From Thermomicrobium sp. (lineage in GTDB: Bacteria; Chloroflexota; Chloroflexia; Thermomicrobiales; Thermomicrobiaceae): a stretch of DNA of 42,672 nucleotides. Shown here piece by piece: positions 7,665 to 13,011 of the stretch. Every line of letters begins with the position of its first letter. Within the stretch, counting starts at the first letter, position 1. A program made the position numbers and the translations under genes. The stretch covers positions 1 to 42,672 of the forward strand of contig JANZZC010000029.1 in the NCBI GenBank assembly GCA_026419575.1. The letters are read 5' to 3'. Below the pieces are notes generated by a model that did no database searches, had not been told where the DNA came from, and saw only the letters and a list, made by a program, of their open reading frames with translations.

Positions 7665-7680
7665 TGTTTCACGTGAAACA
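7665..7680. promoter_or_regulatory. parS: parS centromere-like ParB binding site
   Basis: Perfect 16-bp palindrome TGTTTCACGTGAAACA, identical to the canonical chromosomal parS consensus; intergenic. Confidence 0.92.
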
Positions 7681-7686
7681 GCCGGC

Positions 7687-8136
7687 TCAGCCCATGATCC
7701 ACCGGTCGATCGCTCGCTCGTACTCCACGAGTTCCTCCGGTCGGAAAAACAGGCCGATCTCGTAGGCCGCCTTCTCCGGACTGTCGGAACCGTGGATCAC
7801 GTTCTGCCCGATCGACAGCGCCAGGTCTCCACGGATCGTCCCGGGTTCCGCCTGCGCCGGATCGGTCTTCCCCATCGTCTTCCGCGTCACCTCGATCGCC
7901 CGCGGCCCCTCCACCACACCGACGACCACCGGGCCGGAGGTGATGAACTGCAGCAAGTCCTCGAAAAACGCCTTTCCGTGATGCTCCGCGTAGTGCCGCT
8001 CGGCGAGTTCGCGGTCGATCCGCATCAACTTCAAGCCGACGAACCGCAGCCCGCGCTGCTCGAGCCGTCGCAACACCTCCCCAATCAGCCCGCGCTGCAC
8101 CGCGTCCGGCTTGACGATGATCAACGATCGCTCCAC
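7687..8136 (-). CDS. ndk: nucleoside diphosphate kinase
   Basis: MERSLIIVKPDAVQRGLIGEVLRRLEQRGLRFVGLKLMRID...AIEVTRKTMGKTDPAQAEPGTIRGDLALSIGQNVIHGSDSPEKA; contains the NDPK active-site motif NxxHGSDS. Confidence 0.98.
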   Translation of the reverse strand: MERSLIIVKPDAVQRGLIGEVLRRLEQRGLRFVGLKLMRIDRELAERHYAEHHGKAFFEDLLQFITSGPVVVGVVEGPRAIEVTRKTMGKTDPAQAEPGTIRGDLALSIGQNVIHGSDSPEKAAYEIGLFFRPEELVEYERAIDRWIMG

Positions 8137-9904: not shown

Positions 9905-10879
9905 ATGGTGACGGACTTTCCTGATCCGCTCGGAATCCGTGCCGCCGCGCGCACCGTTCTCGCCCGAGCTCACTGGGTCCAGCTCGACCCTCTCGGACTC
10001 GACCGACTCGCCGACCTCTTGCCCTCGCCGCTGCCGGATCTCCCCGACTGGGATCACCCGCTGCATTGGCGAGGCGACCCCGACCATACTGCGAACTATG
10101 TCCTGCTCCTCGATGCGCTCAACTTCTGCTTCTGGGGCGAACCGCGCTGGCGGATCCGCTACGGTGGGCAGGTGTACGACGGCTACTGGGCACTCGCGGC
10201 GGCCCTCCGGCGGGCGCTCGACGAGGGACGACCAGTCTACGACCCCCGGTACCTGGTCAGCCTCAGCGATGCCGAGATCGCTGCCCTCTTCGCCGGCGAA
10301 GGTACGATCCCCCTGCTCGAGCGGCGGATCGCCCACGTCCGCGAAGTCGCCCGCGGCCTCCTCGAGGCGTGCGACGGCAGTTTCGCCAACCTCATCCGCC
10401 GTGCCGAGCGGAGCGCAGCGGCGCTCGTCCGACTGGTCAGCGCCGTCTTTCCCTCGTTCCGCGACGTCGCTTCCTACGACGGACTGCTGGTGCCGTTCTA
10501 CAAGCGCGCGCAGCTCCTCTGCACGGACCTCGCCGGCGCCTTCGGTGGCCGCGACCTCGGCGCCTTCGACGATCTCCCCGCGCTCACGGCCTTCGCCGAC
10601 TACAAGCTCCCGCAAGTCCTCCGCTTCCACGGCGCGCTCCACTACGCTGACCGGTTGGCCCAGCGCGTCGATGCCCGCGAGGAACTCCCGGCTGGTTCCC
10701 CCGAGGAAGTCGAGATCCGCGCCGCCACCGTCTGCGCGGTGGACGAACTCGCTCGTCGCCTGCAGGCGAGCGGCCGGTCAGCCGCTGCCTGGCAAGTCGA
10801 CTGGGCGCTCTGGCAACTGGGGCAAACGTTGCCTTCCGATGCCCCGCCGTATCACCGGACCCGAACGCCCTTCTATTGA
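9905..10879 (+). CDS. queuosine salvage family protein (DUF2419/Qng1-like nucleotide glycosylase)
   Basis: ...[43 protein letters not shown]...[32 protein letters not shown]...[19 protein letters not shown]; recalled Q-salvage family motifs. Confidence 0.8.
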
Positions 10880-12015
10880 CGCGCCGCGCCGAATCGCGCG
10901 AGTCCCAGGAACCCGATCGGGAGGTGCGATTCGCCGGCGAGCGCCAGATCGGCGAGCGCTTCGCCGATGACCGGAGCGAACTTGAAGCCGTGGCCGGAAA
11001 AACCGCAGCCGATCGCCACCTGTGCCCACACCGGATGGCGATCGACGATGAAGTGCGCGTCCGGGGTCATCGTGTAGAGACAGGTGACCGCCATCATGAG
11101 CCGATCCGGCGCGAGCGGGAGATAGCGGCCGAGCACCGACCGCATCCACTCGATCTCCGCCTCGCCCACCGTCCGGCGCGCGGTCTCCGCCGTGCAAGTC
11201 TCACCGTCGTCGTGCCGGCCGAACTTGACACCCTGGTCGGGCAGCCAAGGAAACCCATAGTACTCCCCTTCGGGAACGTCGAGCAAGCAGATCGGGAGCC
11301 GCTCCGGCAAGAAGCGTTCTCGTTCGCGCGGCTCGACGTGGATCACCAGCACCCGCCGGACGGTCAGGGGCAGACCGAGTTCGCTCAGGAGCTCCGGCAC
11401 CCAGGGACCGGCCGTGACGACCGCCCGCTCCGCCGCGATGACTCCGTCGGCCGTCTCGATCGTAACCCCCGATCCGTCCGCAGCGAAGCGCTCCACGCGG
11501 CACCCGAAGCGCAGGCGAGCCCCGTGCAGCACTGCGTCCTCGCAGAACGCTCGCCAGCAGTCCTCCGCGAACAGGATGCCCGCGCGGCCCTCGTAGAGCG
11601 CAACGAACTCCTCTGGGAGCGACAGCGCCGGAAACCGCGCCTCGGCCTCCCGCGCATCGAGGAGCTCGTGCGCGAGACCGTGGCGCACCGCGCTCTCGCG
11701 CGCTCCGGTGATGAACGGACTGTCCGGCCTGCCGATGCTCACGCCCCCCGTCACCAGCAACAGGCGACGGCCCGTCCGCTCGGCGAGTTCCTCCCAGAGC
11801 TGATAGGATCGTTGCACCAGCGGCACGTACTCGGAAGACTCGAAGTAGGCCTCCCGGATGATCCGCGTTTTCCCGTGCGAGGAACCCCGGGCGTGGAACG
11901 GCGGGTACTGCTCGAGTCCGACGACCCGATAACCGCGTCGTGCCACCGCGCTCACCGCGGCAGCACCCATGATCCCCAACCCGATGACCGCGACATCGAA
12001 CCGCTCCGCGTTCAC
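10873..12015 (-). CDS. FAD-dependent oxidoreductase, monomeric sarcosine oxidase / N-methyltryptophan oxidase-like
   Basis: GTG start at 12015: [74 protein letters not shown]...[22 protein letters not shown]. The upstream part of the 901-aa ORF is spurious. Confidence 0.92.
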
Positions 12016-12077: not shown

Positions 12078-12369
12078 TGTGGAGAGTCGTGTCCACATCT
12101 CGATGGAGAGACACCGTCATCGTAGTCGGGGGTGTGGATCGTGTGGAAATCGCCGGAGAACGCGGTACAGCGCGGGAAAACAGGCTCCTCACCGTGGATG
12201 ACCCACGAGCTCCTGCCCATCGCTGTGGGTGACGATAGCGCTCGCTCGGCACACCAGTGCGATCGTCCACCGTCCTTCCGGAAGGCATCGCCTGGCTACC
12301 CACAATATCGGTCGCTCGGCTGTGGACGACGGGGCGACTTTTCCACCGCCTCCACTCGATCTGTCCACA
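12078..12369. promoter_or_regulatory. cluster of DnaA-box-like 9-mers (candidate oriC or DnaA-titration locus)
   Basis: TGTGGA at 12078, 12133, 12142, 12321; TCCACA at 12092 and 12364; further 7/9-type matches at 12193, 12263, 12296, 12339. Lies in a ~475-bp divergent intergenic region. Confidence 0.5.
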
Positions 12370-12489
12370 CCACGCCCGATCGCCGGCAGCGGTCGTGCCC
12401 GCGAGGCACCGGTGCCGCATCGCCGCGATTGCGGAATGTCGCTCTACTACGTACCGACGCCCGCGACGAGGAGGGAAGGGGAACGGAGG

Positions 12490-13011
12490 ATGCACGACCG
12501 GCTCGCGGGATCCGAGTCGCTCCGAGGGCGAGTCCGGCGCGTCGAGCGCCGCATGCCGGACGAGGAGGCGCGGCGCTGGCTCCAGGCGCAGAAGGTCGTC
12601 CATGTCGCGACGAGAGACCACGAGGGCTGGCCCGACGTCATCCCGCTCGTGTTCGTCTCTCCGAGCGGCAAGCGGCTGTATTTCCACACCGGAGCTCAGG
12701 GCGGCCATTTCCTCTCCAACGTGCGTGCGGATCCGCGCGTCTGCGTCGACGCGGCCGTGATCGGCCCGCTGCATCCCGGGAAACCCTACGCCTGCAACTC
12801 CGCGCTCGTCTACACGAGTGTCGTCGCCTTCGGCCGCCTGCGCATCGTCGACGATGAGGCGACGAAGAGCTGGTTCTTCGATCGCCTCATGGAGAAGTAC
12901 AGCGATTTGGGCCTCTTCGAACCGGGATACCCGCTGCTCGATCGGATCGTGCTCTACGAAATGACGATCGAGCTCCTGACCGGGAAGCGCAGCGAACGTC
13001 TCCGCCCTTGA
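12490..13011 (+). CDS. pyridoxamine 5'-phosphate oxidase (FMN-binding split barrel) family protein
   Basis: [71 protein letters not shown]...[15 protein letters not shown]. The start is uncertain (12436 or 12490). Confidence 0.82.

Follow-up and report, generated by a model that had tools for sequence, protein, structure and literature searches.

The usual marker genes give no indication of the replication origin in Thermomicrobium, and skew alone has been used to place it before. A dense cluster of DnaA-box-like elements in an intergenic region of one such genome raises the question of whether this is the chromosomal replication origin (oriC) or a DnaA-binding site of another kind. The stretch of DNA analysed here (the window, 42,672 nucleotides) is contig C118 of a 2.70-Mb assembly in 174 contigs. 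From sequence comparisons, we conclude that positions 12078-12369 are very probably (roughly 0.92) the oriC of a Thermomicrobium species. The first-pass annotation had also made oriC its first choice, and this reading is favoured because GC skew switches at the orthologous site in three relatives, the genome has a single parS close by, the box positions are conserved across the family, and skew had already placed the origin of T. roseum near dnaX in a published analysis.

A dense array of DnaA boxes between divergent genes

The putative oriC (12078-12369, no strand assigned) was delimited by core scan, density and alignment, and consists of DnaA boxes in a left and a right module. A sequence scan of the window placed six TGTGGA/TCCACA cores in this region (at 12078, 12092, 12133, 12142, 12321 and 12364) and four weaker relatives (12193, 12263, 12296 and 12339), and all the elements that the first-pass annotation had read there are present. 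The non-coding, divergent setting that it described is also confirmed, with a FAD oxidoreductase gene starting at 12015 on the minus strand and a pyridoxamine-phosphate-oxidase-like gene starting at 12490 on the plus strand.

The window as a whole holds 16 cores against 11.6 +/- 3.1 expected, and since there is no general excess, it is the clustering of six cores in 292 bp that constitutes the signal. In spaced stretches covering 417 kb of the 2.7 Mb of its own genome, 0.075 cores are expected per 292 bp, and the array is therefore approximately 80 times denser than the remaining genome. The Poisson probability of at least six cores is 2.3e-10 for one stretch of 292 bp and about 2e-6 genome-wide. 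Elsewhere in the 417-kb sample there were never more than two cores per 300 bp, so that the claim of a dense cluster stands, and the search for similar densities at other places comes out on the side of oriC. Three cores per 300 bp were found at no other place in 818 kb sampled from the relative G001, and the orthologous cluster was the densest in the samples from G006 (378 kb) and G007 (419 kb).

None of the boxes in the window is an exact TTNTCCACA, although relatives carry exact ones at the same positions. Counting TTNTCCACA genome-wide with one mismatch gave 542 sites versus 489 for the reversed pattern, which is no useful excess. The intergenic DNA had no match in a plasmid collection.

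Genomic surroundings and parS

The perfect parS that had been noted 4.4 kb from the array was confirmed. A genome-wide search found the palindrome TGTTTCACGTGAAACA (7665-7680, no strand) as the only copy in the genome even when up to two mismatches were allowed, and a single parS is likewise near the cluster in relatives. When up to one mismatch was allowed, parS-type sites turned up in 12 of the 16 family members searched, always as one or two copies and only in the vicinity of the queuosine salvage gene; two of the other four genomes, which gave no match, are assemblies of low completeness. A parS near oriC is usual but not universal, and an adjacent dnaA is frequent but not defining.

From the gene calls, ndk (7687-8136) follows parS and the queuosine salvage gene is found at 9905-10879 on the plus strand; by comparison with relatives, the latter is an origin-side marker throughout the family. 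Homology to dnaX, encoding DNA polymerase III tau/gamma, was found on the minus strand at 61-741, where the contig end truncates it. From this gene to the array it is about 11 kb in the window, and the corresponding distance in G001 is 12 kb. According to the part of the T. roseum genome paper that concerns the origin, it was placed in that species by GC skew alone, near dnaX (Wu et al. 2009, PMC2615216). With dnaX present in the window, two independent lines of evidence therefore meet at this region.

GC skew and the distance to dnaA

Because the window's own assembly is too fragmented, the skew was judged in relatives, using spaced samples with a resolution of about 30 kb; inside the window alone gene-level noise dominates and the switch itself is not visible. 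The cumulative skew minimum, which the first-pass annotation had suggested as a check, falls on the orthologous cluster in the three better-assembled relatives. On a 2.05-Mb contig of G001, negative skew prevails between about 0.2 and 1.09 Mb and gives way to positive values from 1.16 Mb onward. Both the cumulative minimum and the minus-to-plus switch fall at 1.07-1.11 Mb, a range that includes the cluster (1.1015 Mb). The switch is at 0.50-0.53 Mb in G006 (cluster at 0.5055 Mb) and at 2.58-2.64 Mb in G007 (cluster at 2.5940 Mb), the latter being the weakest case, with skew near zero for some 250 kb past the cluster.

These positions bear on the possibility that the array is a datA- or DARS-like site of DnaA titration or reactivation, the true origin being elsewhere. 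The many boxes, the missing clear AT-rich element and the non-adjacent dnaA would all suit such a site. However, a locus of that type is distinct from the origin, whereas the skew switch of three relatives falls on the orthologous cluster and parS is close by. The sampled genome parts hold no comparably dense cluster. None of our results favours this alternative, which the first-pass annotation had offered, and we regard it as extremely unlikely.

The resolution of the skew analysis also leaves room for a true origin in another stretch within about 30 kb, the cluster serving as an accessory site of DnaA binding within that origin domain. In the relevant part of its genome paper (PMC2615216), base 1 of T. 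roseum is put in the vicinity of dnaX, and this gene is separated from the cluster by about 11 kb. However, that part gives skew as the only basis for base 1, and no second dense box cluster was found in 58 kb of G001 around the switch, nor in the window. An origin beside the cluster rather than at it is in our judgement highly unlikely.

As had been annotated, dnaA is not adjacent, being on a different contig (C169) of the same genome. In two well-assembled Thermomicrobium relatives the cluster and dnaA are 0.73 Mb apart (G001, dnaA at 1.834 Mb) and 0.71 Mb apart (G006, dnaA at 1.216 Mb), and in both genomes dnaA is deep in the positive skew arm, with no box cluster in about 1.5 kb on each side of it. 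In G007 dnaA is at the first bases of contig 1, which is 0.15 Mb from the cluster if the contig is circular. A linked arrangement was observed in another member of the same family (G009:C3:288857-301248), in which dnaA is about 7 kb from the origin cluster and parS is on the other side. With distances of 0.71-0.73 Mb, 0.15 Mb and about 7 kb, the separation of dnaA from the origin varies within the family. The relevant part of the T. roseum paper likewise describes dnaA, dnaN, gyrA/B, Spo0J and gidA as dispersed (PMC2615216). In a genome from another family of the order (G022:C1:254316-258794), dnaA and two near-perfect parS sites were found within 5 kb and there was no dense box cluster there; the position of the origin may differ in that genome.

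Conservation of the box positions

The close relatives are other Thermomicrobium genomes (e.g. strain CFH 73360) and, within the family, Sphaerobacter and Thermalbibacter; G007 is Sphaerobacter-like, sharing its genus with G012 and G015, which bear that name, and may be S. thermophilus itself. In most members of the family a box cluster is found just beyond the queuosine salvage gene. The conservation in relatives on which the first-pass annotation had made its reading depend was indeed found, as box positions are kept in 13 genomes of five genera when set relative to the box R2 (12339 in the window). The conserved positions are near -206 to -219, -146 to -158, about -115, -19/-20, 0 and +21/+22, although not every one of the 13 genomes has every box.

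In the window, these positions correspond to the following elements, all read on the plus strand. Scan and alignment identified the inner left module as two head-to-tail boxes, TGTGGATCG and TGTGGAAAT (12133-12150). The middle box CGTGGATGA (12193-12201) is at -146 from R2 and has an exact TGTGGA core in the other Thermomicrobium genomes and in many other members. The box-like CTGTGGGTGAC (12222-12232), at about -115, corresponds to TGTGGG in the other Thermomicrobium genomes (CGGTGGG in G004). The right module was defined by alignment and, for R1, also by the profile described below, and is made of R1 (TGTGGACGA, 12321-12329), R2 (TTTTCCACC, 12339-12347) and R3 (CTGTCCACA, 12361-12369, 22 bp from R2). 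Further out, the box scan found the outer left boxes TGTGGAGAG (12078) and GTGTCCACA (12089), together spanning 12078-12097 with no strand assigned, and box-like sequence is also found at -250 to -272 from R2 in several relatives.

The boxes of the window are weaker than those of its relatives. R2 is TTATCCACA in 12 of 12 aligned relatives, and TTTTCCACC, ending in C, in the window. In Thermomicrobium, G008, G013 and G009, R1 is directed toward R2. In the Sphaerobacter-like genomes and in G014, the position of R1 (12316-12330 in the window) is kept and its orientation is reversed.

The array is the shared upstream region of two divergent genes, and one could consider that its boxes are merely transcriptional, with DnaA regulating these genes. 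However, the distance from the cluster to the queuosine salvage gene is about 150-430 bp in the Sphaerobacter-like genomes versus 1.2-1.5 kb in Thermomicrobium, indicating that one neighbour gene is not shared, and yet the spacing of the array is unchanged between genera. The array also coincides with the skew switch and parS, and the chance that it serves only transcription appears negligible.

A profile of the right module

From the right modules of 12 relatives, leaving out the window, we built a sequence-only profile. Its best place in the window, in an unfiltered scan, was 12318-12376 (15.6 bits, E 3.8e-4), which is where the proposed oriC has its right module. In each of the 12 training genomes the best whole-genome match adjoins the queuosine salvage gene, as expected by construction, and the profile also finds the site at this gene in six untrained genomes (G010, G016, G017, G019, G033 and G039), two of which, G033 and G039, belong to another family than the training genomes. 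The best match is at a different place in other untrained genomes, among them most members of other families and G018, whose contig breaks off close to the gene.

The window's copy of the right module is the most degenerate of the set, and a fast whole-genome search of its own genome with the profile missed the window and returned a site upstream of an mraZ-like gene (19.4 bits). This site (G000:C111:25117-25201; L052 9118-9202) looks like an MraZ operator and is nevertheless scored by the oriC profile. It holds two exact boxes near the end of its contig that were considered as a second origin and rejected: they flank TGGGG repeats with a period of about 10 bp, just upstream of a gene that, from its sequence, we take to be mraZ, the repeats presumably being an operator of the MraZ type. 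Also rejected as a DnaA box was TTATACACA at contig ends, which is a sequencing-adapter remnant (Tn5 mosaic end). Such Tn5 (Nextera) remnants, TTATACACA or CTGTCTCTTATACACAT, were seen in the sequence at ends of C111 and C169 and are inferred at those of C4, C5, C15 and C24; they can be counted as DnaA boxes in careless scans.

A candidate opening region and a possible mechanism

The first-pass annotation saw no clear AT-rich unwinding element, and we agree. The candidate unwinding site from a GC scan (12085-12124, plus strand) is the lowest-GC 40-mer, which overlaps the GTGTCCACA box and, at 53% GC versus 68% for the contig, is only mildly AT-enriched. Among the relatives, G005, G007 and G009 have their lowest-GC 40-mer at a comparable offset, -254 to -280 from R2, and the others do not, so that 4 of 10 genomes, counting the window, agree.

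Alignment identified a conserved block around CGTCAYCGTAGTCG (12115-12129, plus strand), just before the inner left boxes. All six Thermomicrobium genomes share CGTAGTCG without a difference, and several other genera have TAGTAG at this position. As in the basal unwinding system, composed of a DnaA-box, a spacer and DnaA-trios, a TAG-containing block and a G-rich spacer immediately precede tandem boxes and are oriented as expected. However, the published DnaA-trio pattern requires at least three NAN triplets within 16 bp of a DnaA box (PMC8287927), and the CGTCAYCGTAGTCG block has fewer than three. It was therefore rejected as a standard DnaA-trio; the pattern was found neither in the window nor at the CGTCAYCGTAGTCG block in any of 13 genomes.

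Perhaps the origins of Thermomicrobiaceae share an architecture of two modules that is tied to the queuosine salvage gene and a single parS. The opening block (CGTCAYCGTAGTCG or TAGTAG) would then act as a deviant DnaA-trio that lacks the three central adenines and functions in DNA of high GC content where no AT-rich unwinding element is present. We put this forward tentatively, as an idea that is rather doubtful at present. Initiation at the array, as inferred for the oriC reading itself, would proceed as follows. DnaA, encoded on another contig, would bind the right module, where R1 faces R2 and R3 with a spacing of about two turns, and also the middle and left boxes. From the right module the DnaA oligomer might grow leftward over the tandem boxes at 12133-12150, and the duplex would open at or to the left of the conserved CGTCAYCGTAGTCG block, at about 12085-12129, where the helicase could be loaded. 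ParB spreading from parS would presumably segregate the newly copied origins.

Significance and comparison with known systems

The origin region was roughly known before; what is new is the exact element, the bipartite box array, the conserved CGTCAYCGTAGTCG block and the single parS. A limited, non-exhaustive literature search found no published box cluster or parS for the Thermomicrobium group. An exact, conserved element makes the Thermomicrobium origin testable, and the queuosine salvage marker together with the profile could be used to find origins in fragmented genomes of the order. The family also offers a case in which dnaA and oriC are separated to different degrees and oriC and parS stay together, and it raises the question of how an origin of 65% GC opens without a distinct AT-rich element or standard DnaA-trios.

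The T. roseum origin, in the same genus, resembles the present one in being near dnaX, here at the left end of the window, and in having dnaA and the usual markers dispersed. It differs in that its published placement is by skew only, with no boxes named in the passages on the origin and no mention of parS in the text of the paper (PMC2615216). T. roseum itself was not among the genomes searched here, and our array site is about 11 kb from dnaX. With datA and DARS of E. coli the array shares a box cluster distant from dnaA, but the present cluster is set apart by its coincidence with the skew switch and with parS. Multi-box bacterial origins differ in that here, in Thermomicrobium, dnaA is not adjacent, the boxes of this species are degenerate and an obvious AT-rich element is missing, but the likeness to them includes clustered 9-mer DnaA boxes (TTATCCACA in relatives), an intergenic location, the skew minimum and a nearby parS.
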